Source: Magnetovibrio sp. PR-2 (GTDB taxonomy: Bacteria; Pseudomonadota; Alphaproteobacteria; Rhodospirillales; Magnetovibrionaceae). Taken from it: a stretch of DNA of 64,000 nt. Of the stretch, positions 1 through 14,795 are shown piece by piece; within the stretch, counting starts at the first letter, position 1, and every line of letters starts with the position of its first letter. Both the position numbers and the translations under genes were made by a program. The notes beneath the pieces were generated by a model that was not told where the DNA came from, did not search any database, and saw only the letters and a program-made list of their open reading frames with translations. The DNA lies in assembly GCF_036689815.1 (NCBI RefSeq), contig NZ_JBAHUR010000006.1:124001-188000 (forward strand), given 5' to 3'.

Positions 1-1058
1 GCACCATTGAACTGCTCAGCACCTATGGCCTGACAAAGGGGCTTTACCTGCTTTATGCCATTGTAACATCAGCGGTGATTTTCGCTGTGCTGTGGTTTTA
101 TCTGGGCGGTGAAGTGGGCTTTGTCGATTTGTTTGGGCCAAACGCTTTGTATATTGTGGTTTTTGGCTTTGCCAACATTTTGGTGATGTATGACTTAAAC
201 GCGGACCGGGTTGCTTTGATTGCGGTCGGTAAGCAGGCCTGGGCCCACGTTTTAAGTGCTGTGTCGCTGTTCGTCTTTGCTTGCATCGTGATCCCGGCTA
301 TGATGTATGAAAGCAGCCTCAGTAGCGTGATGGGCGCCCTGTTCTTGGGCAATGTGGTTGCTCGGATCATGTCGTTTGTGGTGATGCGTCGAAATGCCAT
401 CGTGATGCGCCTCTCCACGCGCCAAGTCGTCACGGACCTTAAACGTCTTATGGGCCGCATGGGTGGAGGATACGCCCTTTACGGCATCTTGATTTTGACC
501 TTGTTGCAAGGCGATACGTTGCTTTTGGCTGCCATGGGCGGGGCTTTGATCGTGTCGGATTATGTGCTGATTTGGAAAGGAGCTGATGTGATCTTGCAGC
601 TCCTGTGGCGGCTCCCCGAAACGCTGACGCCTTATCTGATCCATATGGATGCAAAAGGTGAGCGTCATCGTATGCAGGGCATATACAAAAAGGCGAATAT
701 CACGATGATTGGCCTTAGCGCCCTTTGCGCCCTTTTATATGCTCTATTTGGTCAGGCTATCGTCGAGCTGTGGGTAGGTGTGGAACACACCCCGCAGGTG
801 AGTGGTGCTTTTGCGCTGGCCGGGCTCGGACTGTTTTGGATGGCGATTGCCCGCTTGCCAGTGGTGTATGCCTTTTCAACCGTCCGTTTGCAGCCTTTGG
901 TCGCTGTGCTGGGCTTTGAAACCATTGCCAAAGTAATAATCGTAATTGCACTTTTCCCATTCGTCGGGTTATATGCTCCTCTGATTGCGATGAGCGTCAT
1001 TCACGTTTTGGGTGTTGCTTATTTGTACCAAAATCTTCGCCGTAAAGTGTTTTCGTAA
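1..1058 (+). CDS. Polysaccharide flippase (Wzx-like), 5' end outside the window
   Basis: The frame is open from base 3 to a TAA at 1056-1058, so the window starts inside this gene; the first internal GTG at 75 is not taken as the start. The visible part of about 350 residues is a chain of hydrophobic segments separated by short basic loops, with no soluble domain. That is the pattern of the MATE/MOP-type Wzx flippases that move undecaprenyl-diphosphate-linked repeat units across the inner membrane. A glycosyltransferase starts 5 bp downstream and the next 34 kb is polysaccharide genes, which supports the call. The match is to general family shape, not to a diagnostic motif; a related membrane transporter remains possible. 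Confidence 0.6.
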   Translation, partial: TIELLSTYGLTKGLYLLYAIVTSAVIFAVLWFYLGGEVGFVDLFGPNALYIVVFGFANILVMYDLNADRVALIAVGKQAWAHVLSAVSLFVFACIVIPAMMYESSLSSVMGALFLGNVVARIMSFVVMRRNAIVMRLSTRQVVTDLKRLMGRMGGGYALYGILILTLLQGDTLLLAAMGGALIVSDYVLIWKGADVILQLLWRLPETLTPYLIHMDAKGERHRMQGIYKKANITMIGLSALCALLYALFGQAIVELWVGVEHTPQVSGAFALAGLGLFWMAIARLPVVYAFSTVRLQPLVAVLGFETIAKVIIVIALFPFVGLYAPLIAMSVIHVLGVAYLYQNLRRKVFS

Positions 1059-1062
1059 AATT

Positions 1063-2232
1063 ATGCCTCCCATCAATATCACCCACGTTATCACAGGCTT
1101 ATCGGTCGGAGGCGCCGAAAAAGTCTTGATGCGCTTGATTCATGAAATGGATCCGGCATGCTATAAAAACAGCGTCATTTCTTTGACCGATCTGGGCAAA
1201 CTCGGCCAGCAAATGGTTGAGAGCGGGGTGAACGTCTCTGCGTATAATTTCTCCAAAGACAGTAGCAACATTTTGCCTTTCATGAAGTTGTGCCGCGGGA
1301 TCAGAGGTCAAAAGCCCGACATTGTGCAAACGTGGATGTATCACGCTGACCTGATAGGTGGAATTGCGGCCAAACTGGTCACTTCCGCCCCAATCATCTG
1401 GAACTTGCGTCAAAGTAATCTTCATGACGTTCACAGTAAAAAATCGACCATTCGAACGGCCCATTTGTGTGCCAAGGTGTCTTCGCTGGTTCCCAATACA
1501 ATCATTTGCGGTTCCGAAGCTGCCCATTCCGTACACTCCGAAATGGGCTACGACGTCACCAAGATGGTGACTTTGAAAAATGGTTTTGACCACAGCAAAT
1601 ACAAAGAAAATTCCGAAATCGGCGTAGCTTTGCGCAAAAAAATCGGCATATCGGAGAGCTCCTTTGTCGTCGGCAACTCGTCTAGGTATGACCCGCAAAA
1701 AGACCACGAAACCTTTTTGAAGGCAGCCAGCTTGCTGATGAAGGCCCATGACGACGTCGCCATTTTGCTGTGCGGTGAAAACATCTCCGAAGACAATGAC
1801 GATCTTAAGAGCCTTATCGAAGAGTACGGTCTGACGTCAAAAGTTCACATTCTTGGTCTGATGCACGATATGGTCGAGTTCTACTCCGCTATTGATGCTC
1901 TCGCCTTAAGCTCGGCGTTCGGTGAGGGGTCGCCCAATGTCCTGGGCGAAGCCATGCTGTCCGGCCTGCCGTGCGTTTCGACCGATGTTGGCGACAGTGC
2001 ACAAATCGTCAATGACTATGGTTACATCACCAAAGTGGGGGATTATGACGCGTTTGGGCAGGCCCTGATCAAATTGTCGAAAATGTCGCCGTCTGAACGC
2101 AAAGCTATGGGTATGAGCGCGCGCAAATACATACAGGATTCAAACCCGCTGTTGACGATGGTGCAACGTTACGAAGCCTTGTATCGTCGCGTTTACAGCC
2201 AGCAATACAATACCGTTTGTTCGGCCACTTAA
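1063..2232 (+). CDS. Glycosyltransferase, GT4 family
   Basis: This 389-residue protein has the two-domain GT-B layout. The N-terminus carries the glycine-rich acceptor-domain loop (ITGLSVGGAEK), and the C-terminal domain carries the GT4 donor-site signature FGEGSPNVLGEAM, with the E-x7-E glutamates, followed by GLPCVSTDVGD. It probably adds one sugar of the repeat unit to the lipid carrier at the cytoplasmic face of the membrane. I take the ATG at 1063 as start; the reading frame extends 17 codons further up but into the end of the flippase gene, and alignment with the family begins at the later methionine. Donor and acceptor sugars cannot be read from the sequence. Confidence 0.85.
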   Translation: MPPINITHVITGLSVGGAEKVLMRLIHEMDPACYKNSVISLTDLGKLGQQMVESGVNVSAYNFSKDSSNILPFMKLCRGIRGQKPDIVQTWMYHADLIGGIAAKLVTSAPIIWNLRQSNLHDVHSKKSTIRTAHLCAKVSSLVPNTIICGSEAAHSVHSEMGYDVTKMVTLKNGFDHSKYKENSEIGVALRKKIGISESSFVVGNSSRYDPQKDHETFLKAASLLMKAHDDVAILLCGENISEDNDDLKSLIEEYGLTSKVHILGLMHDMVEFYSAIDALALSSAFGEGSPNVLGEAMLSGLPCVSTDVGDSAQIVNDYGYITKVGDYDAFGQALIKLSKMSPSERKAMGMSARKYIQDSNPLLTMVQRYEALYRRVYSQQYNTVCSAT

Positions 2233-2692: not shown

Positions 2693-2710
2693 TTGAGCAT
2701 TGAGACATCT

Positions 2711-3391
2711 ATGCAGGTTCAAGAAGGTGATCGAATTTTTGTGTCTGGAGCCACCGGCAGCATCGGTGAAGCCGCCGCGCGCCTGTTGTATGAGCGGGGC
2801 CTGAAACCGCTGATCGGTTACCACCGTAATGAAGTCAAAGCGCGTCAGTTGGCCCAAGAGTTGGATGGCGAGGCGGTTCAGCTCGGAACCGGGGAACTGC
2901 ATCTACCCAACCCGGTGGAAAACGAAAGCAGCCCCATAACGGGCATCGTCCTAGCCGCGTCGCCCGTGTTGCGGATCGAACCCCTGCGAAAGCTCGACAT
3001 GGTCGATCTTCAAGCCCAGTGGGATGTGAACGTTGGGGAACATTTCCAGCTGTGTCAGGCTCTGATCAACGCTCACATGAAGCAAAACCGCCGGGGTGTC
3101 GTCGTCGGTGTGTTGTCTGATGCCATGGGCGGCGGCAATGCGAAAGCTGCACCGCAGATGGGGGCCTACACGATTGCTAAGTATGGCCTGTTGGGCCTGA
3201 TGAAGGCATTTGAAGCCGAATATGCGTGGTTGAGGTTTGAGCCGGTTTCTCTGGGTTACACTGAAACTTCCATGCTCGATGCATTCGATCCCCGGTTTTT
3301 GGATATGATGCGCAAGAAAGAACCCAACCAGAGATTTAGCAGTCCACAAGAAGCCGCAGCTAAAATCGTCGACGCGGTTTTTGCAACGTGA
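2711..3391 (+). CDS. Short-chain dehydrogenase/reductase
   Basis: A 226-residue Rossmann-fold SDR. The cofactor loop reads SGATGSIGEAAARLL (TGxxxxIG type), a catalytic Tyr-Lys pair is present in AYTIAKYG, and the usual active-site Ser may be S in GVLSDAMGGG. The likely role is interconversion of a keto and hydroxy group on an acyl or sugar intermediate; with MaoC upstream it could work on a 3-hydroxyacyl/3-oxoacyl thioester, but this is inferred from position only. Start choice: ATG 2711 gives the usual short lead into the first beta strand; a TTG at 2693 directly after the upstream stop is an alternative. The C-terminus (residues from about 180) is short compared with FabG. Confidence 0.75.
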   Translation: MQVQEGDRIFVSGATGSIGEAAARLLYERGLKPLIGYHRNEVKARQLAQELDGEAVQLGTGELHLPNPVENESSPITGIVLAASPVLRIEPLRKLDMVDLQAQWDVNVGEHFQLCQALINAHMKQNRRGVVVGVLSDAMGGGNAKAAPQMGAYTIAKYGLLGLMKAFEAEYAWLRFEPVSLGYTETSMLDAFDPRFLDMMRKKEPNQRFSSPQEAAAKIVDAVFAT

Positions 3392-3434: not shown

Positions 3435-5381
3435 ATGGCTCAGATTAACGCGCCGACAGATCTTTTCTGGCTCAAGAAACATCAAGACTTGCCTGATGCG
3501 ATCGGCACGCTGAGAGACCTGTCCTTTGGTGACGCGGCCGGAGTGGAGCTGGCGCGCGTGTTGTCGCTGCACCAGATGAGCTTTTTGGAAGAGAAGAAAC
3601 TCGACCGTATCGTTCAATCGCATCTCGAGGCCGCGCCTGGGTTCGAGCACGAAAAGCTCAAGCGGATCAAACTCGCGATTTTGGCGGATTCGACCTTTGA
3701 TCACTTGGTCGCATCCTTGCGTGTTGCAGGATTGCGCCGGGGCTTCATAATTGATTGTTACGTCGCGCCCTATGGGCAAATTCAACAACAAGTCTTTTCG
3801 CCGACGTCGGAGCTGAAGGATTTCGACCCGGACGTGGTCTTGATTTCGCGCAATACGGCGGGGCTGGTTTCTGCGCTGACGCCGGGTTTAAGCGGCGAAG
3901 ATGTGGACGCCATGGCGGCCTCGCACGTGGAGGAACTTTCTAAAGTTTGGCAAGCCCTCAAGTCGGAACTTGGCGTGACAGTCGTTCAGCAAACCGGCGC
4001 GCCCATTGCGCCTACACTGTACGGCAGTTATGACCGCCATGTCGCCTCTTCGCCGCGGACGTTTGTGGAAAAGTACAATGACGAGCTTTGGCGCGCTGCC
4101 GCCGAAACGGGTTGCTTACTTTTTGATATGGACCAGCTCTATGCGAAGTATGGCATTGTAAACATGTTCAATCCCATGCTTTGGAACCACGCCAAACAGG
4201 AGACGGCCCCCGCCGCCGCGCCCATCTGGGCTGATTACTGTGTCCGCACGTTGCAAGCTGCATATGGGCTTTCGAAAAAATGTCTGGTGCTCGATTTGGA
4301 CAACACGCTTTGGGGCGGCATCATCGGCGACGATGGTCTTCAGGGTATTTCGTTGGGCATGGGCAGTGCCGTTGGTGAAGCGTTTTGGGCCTTTCAGAAC
4401 TATGCCAAGCAGCTCAATCAACGGGGCATCTTACTGGCTATTTGTTCTAAAAACACCTACGAGGTGGCCGCCGAGGCCATCAATGCACACCCCGAAATGG
4501 TTCTGAAGGAAAGCGACTTCAGCGTCATCAAAGCCAACTGGCAACCCAAGCCGGACAACATTGCCGAAATCGCTCAGGAGCTGAACATCGGTCTCGACAG
4601 CCTGGTCTTTTTCGATGACAACCCGATGGAACGCGACCACGTGCGCCAAGCGCTGCCGATGGTCTGTGTGCCCGAAGTTCCGCAAGACCCGGCGCACTAT
4701 GTAAACTGCTTGGAAAGTGCGGGGTATTTCGAGACCGTCAGCTTGACCGCAGACGACTTGGTGCGCGCCTCACAATACAAAGCGAATAAGGAGCGTGCTA
4801 AAGTCGAGCAGAGTGCCGACAATATGGAAGCCTACCTGTCCAGCCTGGGTATGGAGCTTTCCATTTCCCCGTTCGTTCCGATCGATATGCAGCGCATCAC
4901 CCAGTTGGTCAACAAGACCAATCAATTCAACGTCACAACCAAGCGCTATCAACAGGCGGAGCTAGACCACCTCGCCGACAACGAAGATGTCTTGACCATA
5001 TCCGCACGCCTGAAGGACAAATTTGGGGATAACGGTTTGATTTCTGTAGTGATCGCAAAGCATGGCGAGTATGCGGGCGGGCCTGCGCTGATCATTGACA
5101 CCTGGCTAATGAGCTGTCGGGTTCTGGGCCGAATGGTCGAACATGAGCTGTTCAATCATGTACTGGACTATGCCCGGCGAAAAAACATGGAGGTTGTGGT
5201 TGGAGAGTATATTCCGACAGAGCGAAACGCCATGGTGAGTGATCTGTTTTTGCGTTTTGGCTTTGCGGCTGAAGGGGAGAGTGTCGGGGTGAATAAGACT
5301 AAGACATCAGAGACTTTTGTGTTAAAAATTGACGCAAATGTCGCCGCACTAGACACACCAATCAACGTTTCAGTTTCTTAA
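3435..5381 (+). CDS. FkbH-type HAD-IIIC protein (N-terminal SGNH-like, HAD, C-terminal GNAT-like)
   Basis: A 648-residue long-form FkbH protein. An N-terminal SGNH-like region has ADSTFDHLV near residue 84. The HAD core has motif I LVLDLDNTLWGG with nucleophile D287 and acid/base D289, motif II with Ser in LAICSKN (about 338) and the motif III acidic pair in VFFDDNP (394-395). The tail has the FkbH signature NKTNQFNVTTKRY and a GNAT-like fold ending IPTERNAMV. Characterised FkbH enzymes dephosphorylate 1,3-bisphosphoglycerate and pass glycerate to an acyl carrier protein. An ACP begins 16 bp downstream, followed by MBOAT and SGNH genes, which suggests that FkbH loads that ACP. The start is uncertain: TTG at 3381, overlapping the SDR, is open in frame but has no ribosome-binding site. 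Confidence 0.85.
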   Translation: MAQINAPTDLFWLKKHQDLPDAIGTLRDLSFGDAAGVELARVLSLHQMSFLEEKKLDRIVQSHLEAAPGFEHEKLKRIKLAILADSTFDHLVASLRVAGLRRGFIIDCYVAPYGQIQQQVFSPTSELKDFDPDVVLISRNTAGLVSALTPGLSGEDVDAMAASHVEELSKVWQALKSELGVTVVQQTGAPIAPTLYGSYDRHVASSPRTFVEKYNDELWRAAAETGCLLFDMDQLYAKYGIVNMFNPMLWNHAKQETAPAAAPIWADYCVRTLQAAYGLSKKCLVLDLDNTLWGGIIGDDGLQGISLGMGSAVGEAFWAFQNYAKQLNQRGILLAICSKNTYEVAAEAINAHPEMVLKESDFSVIKANWQPKPDNIAEIAQELNIGLDSLVFFDDNPMERDHVRQALPMVCVPEVPQDPAHYVNCLESAGYFETVSLTADDLVRASQYKANKERAKVEQSADNMEAYLSSLGMELSISPFVPIDMQRITQLVNKTNQFNVTTKRYQQAELDHLADNEDVLTISARLKDKFGDNGLISVVIAKHGEYAGGPALIIDTWLMSCRVLGRMVEHELFNHVLDYARRKNMEVVVGEYIPTERNAMVSDLFLRFGFAAEGESVGVNKTKTSETFVLKIDANVAALDTPINVSVS

Positions 5382-5397
5382 ATGTAGGCCGTAGAAT

Positions 5398-5643
5398 ATG
5401 ATACACGAAGAAATTTATGCTGTGCTCAATGAGATTTTTTGCGATGTATTGGACGACAGCTCGATCGAGCTCAAAGCCGAGACGAGCGCCAGCGAAATCC
5501 CGGAATGGGATTCCTTCAGCCACATCAACTTAATTGTTGCGATCGAACTGCATTTCGGCCTGAAATTCAGCAGTTACGAAGTCGAACGTCTGGAAAATGT
5601 CGGTGGCATGGTCGAGCTCATCGCGACGAAACTCAAGGGCTGA
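5398..5643 (+). CDS. Acyl carrier protein of the FkbH/MBOAT cassette
   Basis: An 81-residue, acidic, all-helical carrier protein. The phosphopantetheine attachment Ser is S39 in the sequence EWDSFSHINLI, at the start of helix II as in ACPs and PCPs. It differs from FabD/FabF-type AcpP (DSLDxVE) and resembles dedicated carriers found beside FkbH genes. It lies between fkbH-like and MBOAT genes with 16 and 28 bp gaps, so it is probably the carrier charged by FkbH and used as donor by the MBOAT protein, the position DltC holds in D-alanylation. It needs a phosphopantetheinyl transferase, which is not in this window. Confidence 0.88.
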   Translation: MIHEEIYAVLNEIFCDVLDDSSIELKAETSASEIPEWDSFSHINLIVAIELHFGLKFSSYEVERLENVGGMVELIATKLKG

Positions 5644-5671
5644 TGTTCCAATCATTGTGACCTCACGCTAG

Positions 5672-7339
5672 ATGCCATTTAACTCATTCGATTTTATCTT
5701 CGTCTTTCTGCCGCTTTGCATTGTGGGGTATTACCTCGTGCAAAAGTATTTCGGCAAGACGCCGTCTTTGGTGTTTTTGCTGGGTGCATGTTTTGTGTTT
5801 TACGGCTGGTGGGACCCGGGCCTGATCTGGGTCATATTTGCATCAATCGGATTGAACTTTTTTTGCAATGTCGTGTTGACGACGCTGGATCGAAAGCAAG
5901 AAACCACACGTTTCATTGTTTTGATTTTTGGGGTAGGCCTGAACCTATCCCTGATTGCTTATTATAAGTATTTCTTCTTTCTGGGCTCCATTGTCGATGA
6001 TGCGTTCTCGACGTCATTCAATTTCTCGGAGCTGATTTTGCCGCTGGGCATTTCGTTTTTCACGTTCCAGCAAATTGCCTTTTTGGTCGACACCTGGGGT
6101 GGACATGTGAAGCGCCAAAGTCTTTTGCATTACGCGTTGTTTGTCACCTTCTTCCCCCAGCTGATCGCGGGCCCCATTGTGCGCCACGATGAACTGTTAC
6201 CGCAATTTCGAAAAATGACGCTCTTTTCCAACACCAATTTGAGCATCGGCTTGACCTTCTTTATCATCGGTTTAGTCAAAAAGGTTTTGATCGCCGACAA
6301 CCTCGCGCTGTTTGCAACCCCGGTATTTGTCAAAGCCGAGGGCGGAACCTTGGTGTCGTTTGTGGACGCCTGGGGGGCGGCGCTGGCGTATACATTTCAG
6401 CTTTACTTCGATATCTCCGGATATGCCGACATGGCGGTTGGCTTGGGGCGTATCTTTGGTATACGCATTCCGCTGAATTTCAATTCACCCATGAAAGCCA
6501 AGAGTATCATTGATTTTTGGCAGCGTTGGCACCTGACGTTGACGCACTTTTTAACAGGCTATTGCTACAACCCGATCACATTGAAGGTTACACGCTATCG
6601 CGCCATCAGGCGCCTGCCGGGGCTACGGGGTGGTGTGGGCACCCCCGGCGCATTTTTGTCGCTACTGGCCATGCCGACCATGATCACTATGACATTGGCC
6701 GGCATTTGGCACGGTGCAGGCTATCAATTCATTGTCTTTGGTTTTTTGCACGGCCTGTTTTTGGTTCTGAACCACGCCTGGCGGGGCTTGATGCACAGTT
6801 GGCATGTGAAACTTGGGGCTTGGGCGAAATCGGTCCTGACGCTTGCGTCCGTCGCGCTCACATTTTCACTGATTGTCGCTTTATTTGTCCCGTTTCGTTC
6901 CGGCTCAATGGACAGTGCCATCAACATCTGGCAAGGCATGATGGGGATGAACGGCATCGTTTTGCGCGAGAGCTATGCTTCGATCCTGGGCCCCATTGGC
7001 CCGGTCTTACAAAGCCTTGTCGGGTTGGAATTTTCAAACAGCGCCATGTTGATCTTCAAAGGCACAGACCAAGTCAAATGGCTGGCGTTCGCGTTGTTCA
7101 TCTGTTGGGCGCTTCCCAACACGCAGGAGTTTATGGCGCGGTATTTGGTGATGAAAGACCGTTCGGATGGTATATCGACCGACAGTCCTGTCTTTCACAG
7201 CTACGCCCACATTCGCAAAATTCCGGATGTGATCAGCTGGAAGCCGAACGTATTTTGGGCCATTTTGGCGACTGGGGCATCAATCGCCATCGTCAACAAA
7301 CTGACCTCGACATCCGAATTTTTGTACTTTCAATTTTAA
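5672..7339 (+). CDS. MBOAT-family membrane O-acyltransferase (AlgI/DltB-like)
   Basis: A 555-residue polytopic membrane protein. Family marks include FYGWWDP near residue 43, LPLGISFFTFQQI near 124, FQLYFDISGYADMAVGLG near 242, DFWQRWHLTL with H287, and the catalytic-histidine segment GIWHGAGYQFIVFG with H347, followed by FLHG (H360). AlgI and DltB take acyl groups from a carrier on the cytoplasmic side and deliver them through the membrane to an exported polymer. Here the donor would be the ACP immediately upstream, and the SGNH protein immediately downstream is the usual partner (AlgJ/AlgX or DltD position). The acyl group is not known; FkbH next door points to glycerate or a hydroxyacyl group. 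Confidence 0.9.
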   Translation: MPFNSFDFIFVFLPLCIVGYYLVQKYFGKTPSLVFLLGACFVFYGWWDPGLIWVIFASIGLNFFCNVVLTTLDRKQETTRFIVLIFGVGLNLSLIAYYKYFFFLGSIVDDAFSTSFNFSELILPLGISFFTFQQIAFLVDTWGGHVKRQSLLHYALFVTFFPQLIAGPIVRHDELLPQFRKMTLFSNTNLSIGLTFFIIGLVKKVLIADNLALFATPVFVKAEGGTLVSFVDAWGAALAYTFQLYFDISGYADMAVGLGRIFGIRIPLNFNSPMKAKSIIDFWQRWHLTLTHFLTGYCYNPITLKVTRYRAIRRLPGLRGGVGTPGAFLSLLAMPTMITMTLAGIWHGAGYQFIVFGFLHGLFLVLNHAWRGLMHSWHVKLGAWAKSVLTLASVALTFSLIVALFVPFRSGSMDSAINIWQGMMGMNGIVLRESYASILGPIGPVLQSLVGLEFSNSAMLIFKGTDQVKWLAFALFICWALPNTQEFMARYLVMKDRSDGISTDSPVFHSYAHIRKIPDVISWKPNVFWAILATGASIAIVNKLTSTSEFLYFQF

Positions 7340-7357
7340 ACCAGCAGTCAAGCCGTG

Positions 7358-8548
7358 ATGAAAACTTGTAAGACATACAACATCGTCATATTGGGCTCTA
7401 TCACCGTTTTTTTGATCGGTGTTATGGGCTTCAATTTCATCAACGATCCGTGGGCTTTGCGTTCTGGTGGGCAAGCCCAGTGGGATACGACAAACTATAT
7501 TGATGTATCAAATGAGAGGGTGACGCATGCCTACTGGATGCGGCGAAAACCCATTGATGTCCTGCACATCGGATCTTCAAGGGTACGGCAAATGCTTAAT
7601 TCGGGGTGGGACGGCTATATCAATACGGATGTGGCGGCAGAGATTTATCCAGAGATGTCCGTTTACAGCGCGGGCGTTTCAGGAACCAATATACATGTCA
7701 TGCGCCGCATCGCGGAACACGCGGTTGAGCTCCACGACGTCCAATCTGTCATTATGATGATTGATTTTGTGTCCATGAACGATGCCCGCCCGGACGGTGC
7801 AGGATGGAAAGACGAGCGCTACTTAGGTGGGCGCATTACCGAAACGCCGATTGCCGTTTATTCGAACTTTCTCAGCTTCGAGATGGCCAAAAGCTCTTGG
7901 AGCAAACTTAACCAGGATGAAAAATCACCTGTAGACGTGACGCGAAAGTCGCGTACGCGCTCCCAGCGTGAAACGTTGTGGCAACAGGCGTTGGTCGAGT
8001 TTTACCGCTATGACCTTTACGGTTGCTATTCTCTGTCTGATCAAACGGCTGAGCACTTGGATAAGGCTTTGGCTGTTTTAAAGCAGAACAATGTCGACGT
8101 GATTATCATGACGCCGGTCATTCACAGCACGTTGTTGGAAATGGTGGAGTGGACAAACAATTGGCCGAACTATGAAAAGTTTTTGCATGTGTTGACAGCG
8201 GTTGGGGCCAAGTATGACGTTCCCGTCTGGCACTTTTCACCTTATTCGCAATTGACGTCTTTCGATGTCTTAAGCGAGTCTCACAAAATCGATAGTGACG
8301 ATACAAACGTGCATAGTTTCTATGATCCTGGCCACGCCAGCCACGCATTGGTCTCTGATGCTCTTCGTTTGGTGAAAGGGTTCAAGACCCGTAATGATAC
8401 GCCTTCTGATTTTGCTGTGAAGTTGTTGCCGAAAACTGTTGACGGAGAATTGGCTAAGCTCGCCCAAAGCCGTCTCGAGTTTCTCAAAACCGCACCGGAT
8501 ATTTTGAGTTTGATGCCAAAACGCCAACCTGCGGACAGATGTCAGTAA
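7358..8548 (+). CDS. Membrane-anchored SGNH-like protein partnering the MBOAT
   Basis: A 396-residue protein with one N-terminal hydrophobic segment (about residues 8-26) and a periplasmic remainder. An SGNH-type block I, DVLHIGSSRVRQ, places a candidate nucleophile at S73/S74, and a C-terminal FYDPGHASHALV supplies a D-x2-H pair like the Asp-His of DltD/AlgJ proteins. The usual role of such partners is to complete acyl transfer onto the polymer in the periplasm. ATG 7358 is used; the GTG just before it is less likely. The gene closes the FkbH-ACP-MBOAT-SGNH cassette, and a 319-bp gap follows. Overall similarity is weak, so the family call rests on motif and position. Confidence 0.6.
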   Translation: MKTCKTYNIVILGSITVFLIGVMGFNFINDPWALRSGGQAQWDTTNYIDVSNERVTHAYWMRRKPIDVLHIGSSRVRQMLNSGWDGYINTDVAAEIYPEMSVYSAGVSGTNIHVMRRIAEHAVELHDVQSVIMMIDFVSMNDARPDGAGWKDERYLGGRITETPIAVYSNFLSFEMAKSSWSKLNQDEKSPVDVTRKSRTRSQRETLWQQALVEFYRYDLYGCYSLSDQTAEHLDKALAVLKQNNVDVIIMTPVIHSTLLEMVEWTNNWPNYEKFLHVLTAVGAKYDVPVWHFSPYSQLTSFDVLSESHKIDSDDTNVHSFYDPGHASHALVSDALRLVKGFKTRNDTPSDFAVKLLPKTVDGELAKLAQSRLEFLKTAPDILSLMPKRQPADRCQ

Positions 8549-8867
8549 GCCCGCCTCAGAAAAGCGTGTGGAATGACACAAAACAATCCTCATCTGCAGC
8601 GTGGCTCACGGCAGTGTTGGCAATGATGCTCTCCGCGAAATTTCATCTGTTACGCCCATTAGCCCGAATGCCTGAACCAAGGCCTATGTGGAACGTATGA
8701 AGGCATTTACCCATGCCTTTCAGAGGGTGTTGTGAGATCGTATCGTCGAGCGTCGAGGCTGCGTTTTCTTGACGCCTGATTCCAGAGTGGCCGATGGCAG
8801 ATTAATATTGTTTTGCATAAAAGCGATCATACATAGGGGCTGACATGGCTGTGAAAGCTTAAAACAA
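8549..8867. other. Intergenic region, no gene recognised
   Basis: About 320 bases between the MBOAT cassette and the radical SAM gene. All frames are interrupted. Short coding-like scraps can be read around 8670-8740 on the plus strand (a frame reading AYVERMKAFTHAF), which may be a decayed gene, but the match to any transposase or other family is not convincing. The last 60 bases are AT-rich and end in a six-codon minicistron (8844-8861) before the ATG at 8868. No clear terminator hairpin is seen. Confidence 0.4.
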
Positions 8868-10376
8868 ATGGAATTAAGGCGTATTCAGGAAACCTGTGAG
8901 GAAGCACTCAGGTCCGTCACTCAAGAACAAGAGACCGCTCTCCGATCTCTTCGGGTGCTTTTGATCCAGCCTCCTGAAATCGATGGTGTGAAATCTCTGC
9001 TTCCTCACTTTCAAAAGGGGACGAAAAATGTCGGATTTAAGCCGCCCTTGGGACTTCTGTCGATCGCCAGCACGCTTCAGGACCGGTCTTGCCATGAGAT
9101 TGAGTTAATTGATGCAATTGCCGAGGAACTGACGTTTGAAACGTTGCTGGACAAGGTTGTTGCATTTCGACCCGATGTCATAGGGATTACGGCTTGGACA
9201 GATTTTTGGTGGCCTGCATTCCATACGTGCGAGATCATCAAACAATCTTTGCCTCATGTTCATATATGTGTAGGGGGGCCGCATGTCGGCATTTACCCCA
9301 CAGAAACATTGGATATGGATTGCGTTGACAGCGTCGTTGTCGGTGATGGGGAAATGCCATTTCTCTATTTATGCAACATGGTGTCACACGATCACCTGAT
9401 CAATGATTTCCCAGGCCTACATATCGCCGCAGGCGGGGTGAAGACGCCGCCACTTAGGCAGTTTGTACAAACCGACCTCGATGACTTGCCCATGATAAAT
9501 CGGGCCTTATTGCCAATCTCAAACTATGGCTCTGTTTTAAGTAAGACGGCAGTTTCGACAACGATGATCACGAGCCGTGGATGCCCATACCGATGCACCT
9601 TTTGCAAACTGGATTTTCAAAAAAATGTGGCTCGATCGGCGGACAATGTCGTTTCCGAATTCCAACGGATTGCGGACTTAGGCATTCGTGAGGTTGAAAT
9701 CTATGACGATACATTTACCTGGGGAAAGGCGCGCCTGCGCAGCATTTGTGAAGGTTTAATCGCCTCTGGCAATCAGGTGAAATGGGCTGTTCGAGACCGG
9801 GTTTCATCAGCCGATCCTGAATTGTATCAATTGATGTATCAAGCAGGGTGCCGCCGTATCCATTTAGGCATTGAATCTGGTGTTCAAAGTGTCTTGGACA
9901 AAATGAAGAAAAGGATCACCCTCGAGCAGGCCCGGTTTGCAATTCAAGCGGCACGAGAAGCCGACTTTGAGATATTGACCTATTTTTTGTTCGGCAATGC
10001 AGGAGAGTCCGTGAAAGATATGGAGCGGACGATTGAATTCTCCATTGAATTAGACGTAGATTATTCTGAGTTCTCCATCACTATTCCGTACCCAGGGACA
10101 GAGATGTATCAAACGATGCTGTTATCCGGGGAGATTGAAGGCGATTTTTGGCTGGCGTATGCCAAGGCCCCTGTTCCTCATCTGTCTCCCGACCAAGTCA
10201 TTGGAAATAAAAAGAGTTTAGCCGTTCTGAGGAAGGCGCTCAATCGTGGGAACCGTAAATTTTACTATCGCCCTCGCTATTTAATCCGTGAACTATTACG
10301 GGTCTCTAGTTTTTCGGAATTGTTTCGAAAAATGCGCATGGGAGCCCGTCTCGCACGGTCTGTCTACATTAAATAG
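8868..10376 (+). CDS. B12-binding-domain radical SAM protein
   Basis: This 502-residue protein has an N-terminal Rossmann-like cobalamin-binding domain (about residues 28-180: LLIQPPE, GLLSIA, RPDVIGITAW, VGGPHVGIYP, VGDGE) and a radical SAM barrel. The 4Fe-4S cluster motif is SRGCPYRCTFC, with C239, C243 and C246, and later barrel landmarks are HLGIESG and YFLFGNAGE. Members of this class methylate unactivated carbons or rearrange lipids, sugars and peptides. In this setting an action on a sugar or lipid carrier is a fair guess, but nothing in the sequence names the substrate. No strong ribosome-binding site precedes the ATG. The gene stands alone between gaps of 319 and 383 bp. Confidence 0.85.
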   Translation: MELRRIQETCEEALRSVTQEQETALRSLRVLLIQPPEIDGVKSLLPHFQKGTKNVGFKPPLGLLSIASTLQDRSCHEIELIDAIAEELTFETLLDKVVAFRPDVIGITAWTDFWWPAFHTCEIIKQSLPHVHICVGGPHVGIYPTETLDMDCVDSVVVGDGEMPFLYLCNMVSHDHLINDFPGLHIAAGGVKTPPLRQFVQTDLDDLPMINRALLPISNYGSVLSKTAVSTTMITSRGCPYRCTFCKLDFQKNVARSADNVVSEFQRIADLGIREVEIYDDTFTWGKARLRSICEGLIASGNQVKWAVRDRVSSADPELYQLMYQAGCRRIHLGIESGVQSVLDKMKKRITLEQARFAIQAAREADFEILTYFLFGNAGESVKDMERTIEFSIELDVDYSEFSITIPYPGTEMYQTMLLSGEIEGDFWLAYAKAPVPHLSPDQVIGNKKSLAVLRKALNRGNRKFYYRPRYLIRELLRVSSFSELFRKMRMGARLARSVYIK

Positions 10377-10759
10377 TCCGCCTTGAGCGCCAACCGCTCT
10401 CACGCGTCCAGATGGCCCCTTCTAGGGCTTCATGCCCCGAAACGCCCCTCAGGTTGGGGTGAAAAACGGCCCCGTTTAGACGTTACAGAGGGCTTGTTTA
10501 TGCACCCGTTATGATACAAAATGTGCGCTGCAACAAGATGTTAGGGGTGCTGAATGGCGGGCTTAGGATTTGATTTCGGAAAGCCTGGATTGCTTGAAAA
10601 CGTTGGCAATTTTAATCACCAATACGAGTATGCTGATTAACGGGATATATGCTTTTTGAAGCATTTAACATGTCTGTGTGACGGCGTCACTTCGTCTTAA
10701 GTTTTGACTATTTTTCGAATTTCACCGGGTGCGTGGCCGGGTGCGTGGGAAGGACCTTC
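10377..10759. other. Intergenic region upstream of the ACP island
   Basis: A 383-base gap without a credible gene. The first 100 bases hold GC-rich inverted repeats (around 10442-10480, including CCCC/GGGG arms and AAACGG-CC-CCGTTT) that might end transcription of the radical SAM gene but lack a good T run. The remainder is AT-rich and contains a 13-base palindrome at 10678-10690. A promoter for the 10.8-23 kb gene run presumably lies here, but no pair of -35 and -10 boxes with proper spacing stands out. Confidence 0.4.
10678..10690. repeat. Perfect 13-base palindrome upstream of the ACP island
   Basis: GTGACG-G-CGTCAC is a perfect inverted repeat 69 bases before the ACP start codon. Its arms resemble half-sites of Crp/Fnr or LuxR-type operators (GTGA...TCAC), although the spacing is shorter than the 16 bases typical of Crp. 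It could be an operator for the gene run that follows. Chance occurrence cannot be excluded. Confidence 0.35.
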
Positions 10760-11056
10760 ATGGACAAGATTAGAGATAAAGTCGCGGGAATTGTTTTTGA
10801 GGCATTGGAACATTCCTGGGCTGAATATGACCATCATGAAAAGGCTTCAATGGACAGTGCCATTTTTGGCAAAGATTCTCTGCTCGATTCCACAGCCCTT
10901 GTCTCTATGGTTCTCGATATCGAAGAGCATGTTGAGGAGGTCACCGGCGTGACGGTGTCTTTATTAGACGAGAAGGCCGTCTCACAAGAAAAAAGCCCAT
11001 TTCGAAACGTTTCTGCGATGATTGAATTTGTTATGAGTTCGATTGAGGAGCAATAG
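10760..11056 (+). CDS. Acyl carrier protein
   Basis: A 98-residue acidic helical protein with the carrier-protein core KDSLLDSTALVSMVLDIEE; S44 (in LLDST) is the likely phosphopantetheine site. ATG 10760 is chosen because GGAAGGA lies five bases upstream; a GTG at 10733 is also in frame. It is slightly longer than AcpP, with an inserted stretch around residues 70-80. It opens a close gene run with an SDR (2-bp gap) and an adenylating enzyme, so it is probably a dedicated carrier for an acyl or aminoacyl group used in the surface glycan. It is unlikely to be the fatty-acid synthesis ACP. Confidence 0.8.
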   Translation: MDKIRDKVAGIVFEALEHSWAEYDHHEKASMDSAIFGKDSLLDSTALVSMVLDIEEHVEEVTGVTVSLLDEKAVSQEKSPFRNVSAMIEFVMSSIEEQ

Positions 11057-11058
11057 AC

Positions 11059-11763
11059 GTGTCTGATTTACCCGTATTGGTGTTGACTGGAACCAGCAGA
11101 GGAATTGGGCGACACCTTGCAGAGCACTATCTTGCAGATGGCTGGATCGTTGCCGGGTGTAGCCGTTCTGAGACAGACATCGATCACGAAAATTTCCATC
11201 ATACCTGTTTGGATATAACCGATGAAAAAGAGGTTATCAAATGGGTTCGAAAAGTCTCCCGTGAACAAGGGCGCATAGATGCGACGATTAACAATGCTGG
11301 TGCGGCCAGTATGAACCATATTTGCCTGACCCCAGCGGCAACGGTTGATCGATTGATGGACTTGAATTTTAAAGGAACATTCTTAGTCTCGCGTGAGAGC
11401 GCGAAGGTCATGATGAAGCGTAAGTATGGACGGATTGTGAATTTTAGTTCAGTTGCTGTGCCCCTGACTTTGGAGGGTGAGGCCGTGTATGTCGCTTCAA
11501 AGTCTGCAGTTACGGCTTTTTCCCAGGCGATGGCCCGGGAAGTTGTTGAGCATAACATCACCGTTAATGTTGTCGCCCCACCCCCGATTGATACAGCCTT
11601 GACCCAGAGCGTGCCCAAGAAATCCATGGATAGGCTGCTGGGGCGCATGTGCGTGTCTCGTTACGGTCAGTTTGAGGACGTGCACAATGTCACCGACTTT
11701 TTCCTGAAGCCAGACAGCTCAATGGTGACCGGTCAGGTTATTGCGTTGGGTGTCCCCTCATGA
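11059..11763 (+). CDS. SDR-family reductase (FabG-like)
   Basis: A 234-residue SDR with NAD(P)-binding loop TGTSRGIGRHLAE, the NNAG structural motif (INNAGAAS), active-site Ser in VNFSSVA and Tyr-Lys in YVASKSA. It most resembles 3-oxoacyl-ACP reductases and would fit reduction of a 3-oxo group on the ACP just upstream. GTG 11059 is used as start, with GAGGAG 10 bases upstream. Its last bases overlap the following adenylating enzyme (ATGA), showing translational coupling. Sugar or alcohol substrates are also possible for this broad family. Confidence 0.85.
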   Translation: MSDLPVLVLTGTSRGIGRHLAEHYLADGWIVAGCSRSETDIDHENFHHTCLDITDEKEVIKWVRKVSREQGRIDATINNAGAASMNHICLTPAATVDRLMDLNFKGTFLVSRESAKVMMKRKYGRIVNFSSVAVPLTLEGEAVYVASKSAVTAFSQAMAREVVEHNITVNVVAPPPIDTALTQSVPKKSMDRLLGRMCVSRYGQFEDVHNVTDFFLKPDSSMVTGQVIALGVPS

Positions 11764-13115
11764 GCAAATGGCTGCTTGAAACCTTAAAAGGATATGGGGC
11801 AAGCGACGCGATTGTCTGGAATGGGAAAATAACGTCGTACAGTGAACTGGTTGATATAGCTGAAATGCTAGATAAACAGTTTCATGAGTATGGAATACGG
11901 CCCGGTGCAACAGTTGCCTTGGTTGGTGATTTCGCTCCTGAAACATGTGCTGGGTTTATCGCCTTACTCGGCCAGAGTTGTATAATCGTTCCCTTGATGC
12001 CGAGCACATATGTTAAGCATCCTGAGTTTCTTGATATTGCAAATGTTGATTATATTGTCGACAGCCGTGACGGCATCTCTATTCAAAAGCGAGACGCCAG
12101 CCCACGTCATTCTCTTATTCAAGAGCTGGTGGACCAGGGGCATCCGGGATTAATTCTCTTTTCCTCCGGCTCGACGGGTGGCAGTAAAGCCGCTGTACAT
12201 TCTTTGGTGTCATTGTTGGAGAAATATCGCACAAAGCGTCCGGCAATGCGGTCTTTGACGTTCTTGTTGTTAGATCACATTGGTGGCGTGAACACGTTTT
12301 TCCACGTGATCTCTAACGGAGGCATGCTTGTCGCCACAAGCGACCGCTCGCCAGCAGGTGTGTTTAAAGCGATAGAGTTTGCCGGTGTCGAACTCTTGCC
12401 TGTTTCGCCGACTTTTTTGAATTTGTGTTTGCTCACGAAAGAGTATCAAAATTACGATATTTCAAGTCTGCAGAAAATTACCTACGGTACGGAGCCTATG
12501 CCGCAGAGCACTCTTGACGCGATACACAGAGAGTTTCCTGGGGTGACTTTGCAACAAACCTACGGCCTGTCTGAAGTTGGAATATTAAGCTCAAAGAGCA
12601 AAAGCGATGGATCGCTGTGGGTGAAACTTGGCGGGCATGGGTATGAAACGAAGATTGAAGACGGGCACTTGTTGATCAAGGCTTCTTCCGCAATGCTGGG
12701 CTATCTCAATGCTCCGTCACCGTTTGATGAGGATGGTTGGTTAAACACCCACGACATCGTCGAACGTGATGGCGATTATATTCGCTTCAAAGGCCGTGAT
12801 TCCGAAATTATCAATGTTGGCGGTGAGAAAGTGTTTCCTGCAGAAGTTGAAAGCCTGCTGCTTGAGATCGATAACATCCAAGATGTGACCGTTCGGGGTG
12901 AACACAACAGTTTGCTGGGGCAAATTGTTGTGGCAACAGTGAACCTTGAGTATGAAGAATCTTCTCGTGAATTAAAGAGACGCATTCGGATGACGCTTAA
13001 GGGCAAAGTGTCTGATTATAAAATCCCTCATAAAGTCGAGGTCGCAACGTTTAATCAATACAACAACCGGTTTAAGCGCATGCGACGTGCAGAGTTCGGC
13101 AAGGAGGGCGCATGA
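11760..13115 (+). CDS. AMP-binding acyl-activating enzyme
   Basis: A 451-residue ANL-superfamily enzyme. The P-loop is LFSSGSTGGSKAA (about 133-145), the A5 region reads QQTYGLSEVG, the hinge is FKGRDSEIINVGGEKVFP, and the C-terminal catalytic Lys is probably in NRFKRMRRAEF. Such enzymes adenylate a carboxylic acid and pass it to CoA or a carrier protein. The hinge GRDSEIINVGGEKV is of the acyl-CoA/acyl-ACP ligase type, unlike the aminoacyl type of the second adenylating enzyme at 14796. It overlaps both neighbours by 4 bp, so it is in one transcript with the ACP and SDR. Its substrate cannot be read from the sequence. Confidence 0.85.
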   Translation: MSKWLLETLKGYGASDAIVWNGKITSYSELVDIAEMLDKQFHEYGIRPGATVALVGDFAPETCAGFIALLGQSCIIVPLMPSTYVKHPEFLDIANVDYIVDSRDGISIQKRDASPRHSLIQELVDQGHPGLILFSSGSTGGSKAAVHSLVSLLEKYRTKRPAMRSLTFLLLDHIGGVNTFFHVISNGGMLVATSDRSPAGVFKAIEFAGVELLPVSPTFLNLCLLTKEYQNYDISSLQKITYGTEPMPQSTLDAIHREFPGVTLQQTYGLSEVGILSSKSKSDGSLWVKLGGHGYETKIEDGHLLIKASSAMLGYLNAPSPFDEDGWLNTHDIVERDGDYIRFKGRDSEIINVGGEKVFPAEVESLLLEIDNIQDVTVRGEHNSLLGQIVVATVNLEYEESSRELKRRIRMTLKGKVSDYKIPHKVEVATFNQYNNRFKRMRRAEFGKEGA

Positions 13116-13720
13116 GCGAATGCTTCTTGCTGGATTCATCCCACCTGGAGGACGTTATTCAGGCTCACCTCGAAACATGGGAGGCCTCTTCATTATCGGT
13201 TCAGCTGGGCCCTACATTTCTAAAAGCTTTTTATAATCTTGCCATAGAAGACCCAGCCACGATTGCCGTTGGAATTCGCCAAAGTCATGACGCTCAAATC
13301 TCTTCATGGTGCTTGGGGTTTCGCCAATACAGCGCATTTAACGCCACGCTCAAAAAAAGACTGGGATTGAGCCTTTATTTTCTTGTCGCTAAAAAGGTTT
13401 TAACAGGAACGATTTCGATTGGGCAGGTGGTCGATAACATTCTGGGAAACGATCAGGCCCGGTCGGTGAAATGCCCGGAAAACCACTTGGGAGCCTTTGG
13501 CTGCATTGGCAAAAATTTTGAAGATGTGCTTTTATTAACAAAATTGATCGCCTACACTGCCGCACAGTTGTGTGAAACAGAATCAGCATGTTGGGCCGTT
13601 ACGAACGACACGAACAAAGGCGGAAAAATGGTCATGAAAAGAGCTGGTTTTTCGCAGATTGATGAAATCCAAACAAAAGACAGAACACTTGGGATCTATG
13701 AGTTCTCTTCAGGCACTTAA
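13112..13720 (+). CDS. GNAT-family N-acyltransferase (probable)
   Basis: A 202-residue protein with a GNAT-like course: an N-terminal segment containing GPTFLKAFYNLA, a central strand LGAFGCIGK followed by a long helix with acidic and small residues, and the C-terminal pattern VTNDTNKGGKMVMKRAGFSQ that matches the N...A...Y/F-x-K-x-GF end of the GNAT fold. It would transfer an acyl group from CoA or ACP to an amine, for example an amino sugar. It overlaps the adenylating enzyme by 4 bp and the methyltransferase by about 23 bp. The acetyl-CoA loop is not the textbook R/Q-x-x-G-x-G/A, so the family assignment is moderate. Confidence 0.6.
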   Translation: MSECFLLDSSHLEDVIQAHLETWEASSLSVQLGPTFLKAFYNLAIEDPATIAVGIRQSHDAQISSWCLGFRQYSAFNATLKKRLGLSLYFLVAKKVLTGTISIGQVVDNILGNDQARSVKCPENHLGAFGCIGKNFEDVLLLTKLIAYTAAQLCETESACWAVTNDTNKGGKMVMKRAGFSQIDEIQTKDRTLGIYEFSSGT

Positions 13721-14723
13721 TGTGGATTTTTTTCGCTGTCCGAGCTGTCATAGCGAGAATATGATTGCAGGTTCCGATGGTGATGTGTGGGCCAAATGCT
13801 CGGCTTGTGGTGAGCAGTTCAGCTATTTTGACGATTTTCCATTTCTTGTTTCGCAAAGTTTTATGGGATTGGTTCGAGATGCAAACAGCGTCACGATCGA
13901 GGCTCAAAACTTAGATGCAATGCCTGCCGATGTTGTTAAGCAAGCAAATATCAAGTTTCACAATGATATTGCCGAGCAATATGAGCACGATGTTTCAACA
14001 TACGACATATTTAAAGAGGGTGGAGCTTGTCAGCATCGCTTGCAAGAAACCATTCAGGAAGCTGGGAAGGCTTCTGGAAATGACGTGTTGCTCGATGTGT
14101 GCTGTGGAACCGGCAATGTATTGAGAACAGCGGATAACGTTTTCAAGAACTGTATTGGTATCGATATTTCGACCAATATGATGAAAATTGCTCACAAGCG
14201 CGAACTTGAAGTCCTGGGCGCAGACGCAACGAACATTCCTTTTGCCAACGATAGCGTGAATTGCGTAACAGCTTTCAGCGCATTGCATCACCTTGTTGAT
14301 TACACGGATGTTGTTCAAGAAATGGCCCGCGTGCTGAAGTCAGGTGGGACTTTTTACACCGATTGGGATCCGAACGGGCATGTCACACACACAGGCTGGG
14401 CGGTCTCTTTGTTGGTGAACACCGTTCATTGGGTGCGCCGGATGATTTTAAAAGGGCAAATACCTGAAACGGATGAACAACAAGTTGCTGAGTTTCACCA
14501 TAATTCAGGTCCTGGATTTGAAGCTGAAAAAGTTGCTGAAGTGTTGCGGAATGCAAACTTTAAGTCGGTAGAAGTTGTCTATCACCTCAACCCAAACAGC
14601 TTTTCAAAGAGCTCGAAATGGTCACCTGTCATTGCCGTGATGGGATTTTTGAAGCTGATTAGTTTTGTCTCCCCAACACCTAAGAACCTCTACCCTTGGG
14701 TTGCCGTCAGGGCAATCAAGTAG
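13698..14723 (+). CDS. SAM-dependent methyltransferase with N-terminal zinc ribbon
   Basis: A 341-residue protein in two parts. Residues 1-50 form a Trm112-like zinc ribbon with CPSC and CSAC knuckles. From about residue 110 it is a class I methyltransferase with motif I LLDVCCGTGNVL, GIDIS after strand 2, and FSALHHLVD at motif IV, as in UbiE/type 11 enzymes. The C-terminus contains a hydrophobic stretch near 330. I choose ATG 13698, 23 bp inside the GNAT gene; TTG 13659 and ATG 13662 are in frame upstream. In this cluster it could methylate a sugar, an acyl group or a lipid carrier. The target is unknown. Confidence 0.8.
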   Translation: MSSLQALNVDFFRCPSCHSENMIAGSDGDVWAKCSACGEQFSYFDDFPFLVSQSFMGLVRDANSVTIEAQNLDAMPADVVKQANIKFHNDIAEQYEHDVSTYDIFKEGGACQHRLQETIQEAGKASGNDVLLDVCCGTGNVLRTADNVFKNCIGIDISTNMMKIAHKRELEVLGADATNIPFANDSVNCVTAFSALHHLVDYTDVVQEMARVLKSGGTFYTDWDPNGHVTHTGWAVSLLVNTVHWVRRMILKGQIPETDEQQVAEFHHNSGPGFEAEKVAEVLRNANFKSVEVVYHLNPNSFSKSSKWSPVIAVMGFLKLISFVSPTPKNLYPWVAVRAIK

Positions 14724-14795
14724 CTTGAGATGTCTATTGGTTGTGCTGACAAAACCCTTGTGAGATTTTCGTTTTAGGTCGGTGAGGCTGTTGCC

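Follow-up and report, generated by a model that had tools for sequence, protein, structure and literature searches.

A candidate FkbH-charged, carrier-protein-fed MBOAT/SGNH surface acylation system in Magnetovibrio sp. PR-2

Introduction

Four genes that lie head to tail on the + strand of a contig from Magnetovibrio sp. PR-2 raise the question of where a membrane acyltransferase obtains its acyl group, and which acyl group that is. The genes, at positions 3435-8548 of a 64,000-nucleotide stretch (contig NZ_JBAHUR010000006.1, 124,001 to 188,000; this whole stretch is the window throughout), encode an FkbH protein, an acyl carrier protein (ACP), an MBOAT acyltransferase and an SGNH-like protein. 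An earlier reading made from the letters of the DNA (the sequence-only reading) had described them as a Dlt-like surface acylation system with a different charging enzyme. On the evidence below, the genes probably encode a carrier-fed MBOAT/SGNH system for surface acylation. To the complete scheme, carrier-protein-dependent O-acylation that is fed from glycolysis and passes through lactyl-forming steps, we give about as much credence as doubt.

Results

FkbH occupies the place of the charging enzyme

Sequence is enough to establish which genes are present and in what order, which catalytic and shuttle residues they encode, that the set recurs and to which subfamily the MBOAT belongs. All four open reading frames (ORFs) of the sequence-only reading are present, and the intergenic gaps of 16, 28 and 15 bp agree with it, the third being the 18 bp that it gave when counted from the ATG at 7358, the codon that follows the GTG start of the SGNH-like gene at 7355. 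The match of the first protein to TIGR01686, the NCBIfam FkbH domain, lies well above the cut-off of 146.65 bits (Table 1), and its HAD residues are intact, as had been read: the DxDxT motif, present as DLDNT (4293-4307), is invariant together with Cys561 in 12 aligned sequences including that of the window. A genome search found no other FkbH match in the same genome. The PP-binding match of the carrier protein is weak but plausible (19.5 bits against a cut-off of 20.8, E 0.0012), and its previously noted EWDSF block supplies Ser39 (5512-5514), the expected phosphopantetheine site. Domain scans detected no AMP ligase among the cassette genes, where FkbH stands instead, in agreement with the sequence-only reading; two AMP ligases lie downstream in a separate module. 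A plain Dlt operon was rejected, as the cassette has no DltA and the MBOAT falls below the cut-off of the DltB equivalog TIGR04091 (160.6 bits against 375).

The MBOAT resembles DltB at the predicted carrier-docking region and carries its own shuttle motif

The window MBOAT, whose structural model has a predicted local distance difference test score (pLDDT) of 86, retains the WHG histidine (His347) that is invariant in 22 aligned sequences including its own. Its nearest solved structure is DltB, both by sequence (E 3e-24) and by fold (6bug_C, E 1.2e-12, TMt 0.76). Comparison of MBOATs by genomic setting revealed an LGGN loop between the RWH and WHG blocks in 31 of 36 proteins that have no FkbH, ACP or AMP ligase within 7 kb. 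The loop occurs in none of the 61 FkbH-linked MBOATs, in none of four encoded with an AMP ligase and an ACP, and in three of four with an AMP ligase and no ACP. A genome search showed that the window's genome encodes three MBOATs; the other two (L061 6650-8239 and L062 6661-8217), within 7 kb of which neither FkbH nor ACP was found, carry the loop. The LGGN stretch corresponds in position to DltB helix HC, which according to the accessible text of PMC11035591 binds DltC via Met302, Val305, Ile306 and Met309, with Lys312 and Arg317 nearby. The alignment of the window MBOAT with DltB 302-317 is free of gaps, and residues 288-312 form a helix in the model of the window protein. We infer that the LGGN loop is a mark of MBOATs that use acetyl-CoA, and the window protein, with a DltB-like region as its predicted docking site, appears to be of the carrier-fed kind. 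The net charge of the loop barely separates the groups (mean 6.5 in FkbH-linked and 5.6 in unlinked proteins).

PatA transfers acetyl to a tyrosine within the FxYxxF motif at its own C-terminus and DltB depends on the separate DltX, according to the portion of PMC12148441 available. The window MBOAT ends in such a motif, FLYFQF, and a tyrosine is found among the last six residues of 53 of the 61 FkbH-linked and all 36 unlinked MBOATs, and in none of the four with AMP ligase and ACP. The 15-28 bp gaps between the core genes leave no room for a separate DltX, for which the rest of the genome was not searched. Since the MBOAT holds its own acyl-shuttle motif, the system is more than a Dlt system whose charging enzyme has been exchanged; that description comes close, standing for FkbH in the place of DltA and failing for the fused, PatA-like shuttle motif. 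As judged by its residues, the membrane half is a hybrid of the Dlt and Pat types, in which a fused FxYxxF shuttle is combined with a DltB-like docking region.

An MBOAT tree was built by a quick method from 105 rows, 61 FkbH-linked and 44 without FkbH, after four short pieces had been removed; the 44 were drawn from about 107 listed, as 40 chosen regions (the best-scoring and a few low-scoring ones) together with the two other MBOATs of the window's genome. The tree has long branches, several FkbH-linked rows among them. On it the FkbH label changes five times, against a mean of 33.7 when shuffled. One branch (support of 97 in the SH-like approximate likelihood ratio test, SH-aLRT) contains 41 rows, every one FkbH-linked and the window among them, and another 13 FkbH-linked MBOATs group, with weak support (76), with the four of the Dlt arrangement, AMP ligase plus ACP. 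A single clade for all FkbH-linked MBOATs was rejected by the approximately unbiased (AU) test (p-AU 2e-7), so that under the tree model the pairing of FkbH and MBOAT arose more than once or was lost.

The SGNH-like protein is a divergent partner

The fourth protein has no clear sequence family (its DUF1574 match is below cut-off), and a comparison by sequence with solved structures returned zero matches. Its sole invariant residues among 16 aligned sequences, the window's included, are G73, S75, D324 and H327, located in the GSSR and DPGH blocks. For an AlphaFold model (mean pLDDT 70), Foldseek returned SGNH hydrolases and DltD at probabilities of 0.9-1.0; because the E values are about 1e-3 to 1e-2, with none at 0.001 or below, we regard the SGNH fold match as moderate. 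The sequence-only reading had assigned the two membrane proteins to the kind of pair that acylates exported polymers, and this is supported, the MBOAT being a clear domain match and its partner a moderate fold match. By a crude motif rule, 41 of the 61 FkbH-linked MBOATs have an SGNH-like neighbour.

The gene set recurs across phyla

In an order survey of 150 genomes, 28 encode a relative of the window FkbH, with 33 matches in total. Each of the 12 FkbHs that score at least 380 bits, the window's included, has an MBOAT within 4 kb; the 21 weaker ones, some of them on short contigs, have no listed MBOAT within 10 kb (the two tables were compared by eye). In a phylum sample of 299 genomes, at least 16 of 88 FkbHs are within 10 kb of an MBOAT, compared with roughly 0.3% expected at a random position; the sample leaves out six FkbH matches under the family cut-off, and the expected value is based on a genome size of 4 Mb. 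The pairing is thus far above chance, and on these distances a chance neighbourhood of the two genes was rejected. A scan of named genomes with FkbH gave, for the best 80 relatives, loci in several phyla, with an ACP in 75 and an MBOAT in 51 of the fetched stretches. Together the three samples bear out the expectation that the four-gene set co-occurs elsewhere. Combining the 51 loci of the scan with 12 of the survey yielded the 63 FkbH+MBOAT loci used below; counts of MBOAT, MaoC and SDR in such loci depend on stretches that sometimes end at contig ends.

Several observations count against the proposed system. Among the matches listed, 72 of the 88 FkbHs of the phylum sample have no MBOAT within 10 kb, so that the majority of FkbHs in that sample may have another role, and no MBOAT was seen in 29 of the 80 loci of the scan. 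Most of the 63 loci were reached from FkbH. The divergence of the SGNH-like protein prevents a clear assignment to a family, its model cannot be relied on at residues 146-200, and by the motif rule such a neighbour is missing from 20 of the 61 FkbH-linked MBOATs. Finally, a module with AMP ligase, ACP and SDR begins 2.2 kb downstream (10733) and could be confused with the cassette. In one alternative, a cytoplasmic acyltransferase takes the product of FkbH and ACP and attaches it to a nucleotide sugar by N- or O-acylation, while the MBOAT and its partner separately O-acetylate from acetyl-CoA. The MBOAT-free loci of the scan would suit it, as would FkbHs that stand beside a WcbI-family protein or share an ORF with an AAC(3)-like domain, but FkbH-linked MBOATs occupy branches of their own and lack the LGGN loop that both other MBOATs of the genome possess, and the core genes are separated by 15-28 bp. 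We consider this alternative quite improbable and retain carrier-fed surface acylation.

Other layouts of FkbH were encountered during these surveys. Sinorhizobium meliloti pSymB-type replicons (L213 815-5849, L214 5480-10680) encode MBOAT, ACP and FkbH, with no MaoC found; in L213 an SGNH-like gene annotated as a TonB-dependent receptor sits between MBOAT and ACP. The strains concerned include 2011, where the three genes occur together on pSymB, and RCAM1750, where the intervening SGNH-like gene was read. A Niveispirillum plasmid (L215 8899-13379) has FkbH, ACP, a WcbI-family acetyltransferase and a fused MaoC-SDR protein, and no MBOAT was found across its 19.7 kb stretch, perhaps because a different enzyme delivers the acyl group. 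In a genome of the same genus (L048 8503-11373), the FkbH-like ORF also has an aminoglycoside 3-N-acetyltransferase (AAC(3))-like domain, which suggests an alternative route for handing on the acyl group. Two phage records from human faeces (MT835480.1 71476-73086; MT839313.1 3-809) also contain FkbH relatives, which could be phage-borne or host DNA.

A dehydratase and a reductase precede FkbH

While its four-gene core was confirmed, the sequence-only reading had overlooked a MaoC-type dehydratase gene and an SDR reductase gene immediately upstream (Table 1). These two abut with zero gap, and the FkbH ATG follows 43 bp past the SDR end (an alternative FkbH start, TTG at 3381, would overlap the SDR gene). 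The MaoC protein retains the Asp and His of the SGDxNPLH block, present as SADQAPVH. The order MaoC-SDR-FkbH is repeated in other phyla, where fused MaoC-SDR versions also exist, and on these grounds the view of the two as unrelated neighbours was rejected. Across the 63 loci, MaoC and SDR are adjacent in 11 (window included) and fused in 6, giving 17/63; in a further 6 MaoC is accompanied by a B12-binding radical SAM protein, and 2 have MaoC only.

A similar pair of activities is known from polyketide biosynthesis. DH-KR (dehydratase-ketoreductase) proteins convert glyceryl-S-ACP to lactyl-S-ACP in the FR901464 and lankacidin pathways, according to the available text of a review (PMC4765723), and the accessible part of PMC6162330 gives the lankacidin starter as possibly pyruvoyl- or lactoyl-ACP derived from 1,3-bisphosphoglycerate. 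Streptomyces griseofuscus pSGRIFU1 encodes a 499-aa protein composed, by Pfam, of MaoC plus SDR, near ACP and HAD-IIIC genes; we take the polyketide cluster to be of lankacidin type, although the name is absent from the record. Profiles built from the MaoC and from the SDR proteins of FkbH loci each detect this protein, and the fused protein of L042 can be aligned to both domains of the pSGRIFU1 protein (23%, E 1e-17).

The presence of MaoC and SDR ahead of FkbH, the recurrence of the pair, the statement on DH-KR proteins and the pSGRIFU1 protein together make lactyl likelier than glyceryl. The sequence-only reading had proposed glyceryl or another hydroxyacyl group. Two findings speak against lactyl in this cassette. 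A tree of 46 SDRs places the SDR of the window with stand-alone SDRs adjacent to FkbH, and the lankacidin-type DH-KR and most fused proteins occupy a separate branch, so that product or stereochemistry may differ. Moreover, no MaoC was seen in 38 of the 63 loci, some of them truncated at contig ends, which makes MaoC+SDR a variant outside the core set. Because of the SDR branching we hold lactyl, by analogy with the polyketide pathways, to be an even call.

The same system might instead deliver unmodified glyceryl, MaoC and SDR then being enzymes of a separate pathway encoded in the locus. The many loci without MaoC make the existence of a glyceryl form probable, and neither MaoC nor a matching SDR was found by the core genes of Stutzerimonas loci such as L064 and L066 or of S. 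meliloti pSymB. For the window this is unlikely: its MaoC and SDR genes run into FkbH at the spacing given above, and their order and fusions recur elsewhere.

Radical SAM variants may point to other acyl groups

A B12-binding radical SAM protein lies between MaoC and FkbH, in the place of SDR, in L038 (5181-6797), L041 (7729-9357), L043 (7523-9139), L044 (11420-13021), L045 (10710-12350) and L118 (8200-9843); four of the six MaoC+radical-SAM loci were confirmed by Pfam. L124 has the same arrangement (8197-9840), with no MBOAT seen. The proteins of L038, L044 and L118 are nearest to the PhpK family (361-372 bits against a cut-off of 600). Judged from these genes, the acyl group of such loci is possibly a methylated C3 group. 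L037 has a methyltransferase plus a glyoxalase-family protein.

The window itself encodes a radical SAM protein (8868-10376) and a methyltransferase (13659-14723), and the carrier could bear another tailored acyl group, modified further by one of these enzymes or produced by MaoC and SDR from a different hydroxyacyl-ACP. Tailoring evidently varies, as L037 and the six loci with radical SAM in the SDR position show, and the window SDR is not within the lankacidin-type branch. The radical SAM gene, however, begins 319 bp past the SGNH-like gene, and its product scores 339 bits against 830-918 for those beside MaoC (the scores come from two versions of the profile); this difference suggests that it belongs to a separate subgroup. 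We regard such tailoring as doubtful, and return to the lactyl scheme.

Discussion

Proposed pathway

Each chemical step, and the recipient, is modelled on relatives of the proteins concerned. FkbH would dephosphorylate 1,3-bisphosphoglycerate and put glyceryl on holo-ACP. MaoC would then dehydrate glyceryl-ACP to enol-pyruvyl/pyruvyl-ACP, the alpha-ketone of which would be reduced by SDR to yield lactyl-ACP. The cytoplasmic HC-type helix of the MBOAT would receive lactyl-ACP, and the enzyme would move the acyl group onto the tyrosine of its own C-terminal FLYFQF. From this tyrosine the group would pass to the serine of the periplasmic SGNH-like protein, which would esterify a sugar within the polysaccharide that the surrounding locus makes for export.

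Comparison with known systems

The cassette shares with Dlt (DltA-DltC-DltB-DltX-DltD, teichoic acid D-alanylation) a carrier gene by the MBOAT, the DltB fold, the HC-aligned region and an SGNH partner. It differs in having FkbH rather than the AMP-forming ligase DltA, a shuttle tyrosine fused to the MBOAT rather than a separate DltX, an acyl group expected to be a hydroxyacid, and a host that is probably Gram-negative, to judge by its nearest named relatives. With the PatA-type acetyl-CoA systems it shares an MBOAT with C-terminal FxYxxF shuttle and an SGNH protein; those use acetyl-CoA as donor without a carrier protein, according to the available text of PMC12148441, whereas the cassette encodes one, and its MBOAT lacks the LGGN loop common in unlinked MBOATs. 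The same 2025 paper, in the portion available, states that MBOAT/SGNH pathways other than Dlt have no carrier protein, a rule to which the window cassette looks like an exception on its gene content. The likeness to lankacidin and FR901464 biosynthesis, as described in the sources cited above, lies in an ACP-bound C3 unit from 1,3-bisphosphoglycerate, predicted for the cassette, and in a dehydratase and a ketoreductase. In those pathways DH-KR is a single protein and the product serves as primer for a polyketide synthase; here an MBOAT/SGNH pair is downstream, and MaoC and SDR are separate, with an SDR of another branch.

The sequence-only reading knew of no characterised system of this layout, and we found no description of such a surface system in the open literature searched, most subscription journals being outside that scope. 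Nothing was found in that literature for FkbH with O-antigen or for HAD-IIIC with MBOAT. The papers found there that mention FkbH together with MBOAT concern cyanobacterial peptides, for which the two act separately (PMC10143770, PMC13122637).

The surrounding locus

The features of the cassette and its upstream genes are collected in Table 1. The glycosyltransferase gene ends 25 bp ahead of MaoC; by its position it may be part of the same operon and a pointer to the recipient glycan. Further genes encode a DegT-type aminotransferase, a UDP-GlcNAc 2-epimerase-type enzyme, an asparagine-synthase-type protein and a sugar dehydratase, and from this content the region beyond the cassette looks like a surface-polysaccharide locus. 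A second carrier module (10733-16286) consists of an ACP-like protein (10733-11056), an SDR, an AMP ligase, an unassigned 202-aa ORF, a methyltransferase and another AMP ligase. Its SDR clusters in the SDR tree with FkbH-near SDRs of L046 and L047, two loci in which a related AMP ligase adjoins ACP and FkbH.

Table 1. Features of the cassette and its upstream genes (window positions)
Feature	Positions	Strand	Basis
Glycosyltransferase group 1	1012-2232	+	PF00534 91.2 bits
MaoC-type (hotdog) dehydratase, 144 aa	2258-2692	+	PF01575 53.8 bits
SDR reductase, 232 aa, TTG start	2693-3391	+	PF00106 57 bits; YTIAK in sequence
FkbH (HAD-IIIC), 648 aa	3435-5381	+	TIGR01686 313 bits; PF21211 FkbH_N 63 bits
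Acyl carrier protein, 81 aa	5398-5643	+	PF00550, just under cut-off
MBOAT acyltransferase, 555 aa	5672-7339	+	PF03062 70.9 bits
MBOAT residues 288-312, predicted helix overlapping the DltB HC-aligned stretch	6533-6607	+	alignment, model, LGGN counts
MBOAT C-terminal putative acyl-shuttle motif FLYFQF (FxYxxF)	7319-7336	+	motif as in available text of PMC12148441
SGNH-like protein, 397 aa, N-terminal hydrophobic helix	7355-8548	+	GSSR block, DPGH block, fold match

Implications

We lean slightly towards the view that the cassette represents a widespread class apart from Dlt and the acetyl-CoA systems. Such a class would be fed from glycolysis and charged on a carrier protein, and would place C3 hydroxyacids (glyceryl, lactyl or radical-SAM-tailored) onto exported glycans by means of a shuttle inside the MBOAT; FkbH and MBOAT would have been paired at least twice, and the donor type could be read from one MBOAT loop. 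If this is correct, the acyl source of bacterial surface sugars would be predictable from genome sequence. An MBOAT that lacks the LGGN loop and has a carrier gene next to it would indicate a carrier-fed system, in which FkbH with MaoC and SDR would predict lactyl and FkbH without them glyceryl. Glyceric acid esters occur on some polysaccharides, for example gellan, and the cassette would be a candidate route to esters of this kind. It would also qualify the published statement, as given in the available text of PMC12148441, that MBOAT/SGNH pathways outside Dlt are carrier-less.

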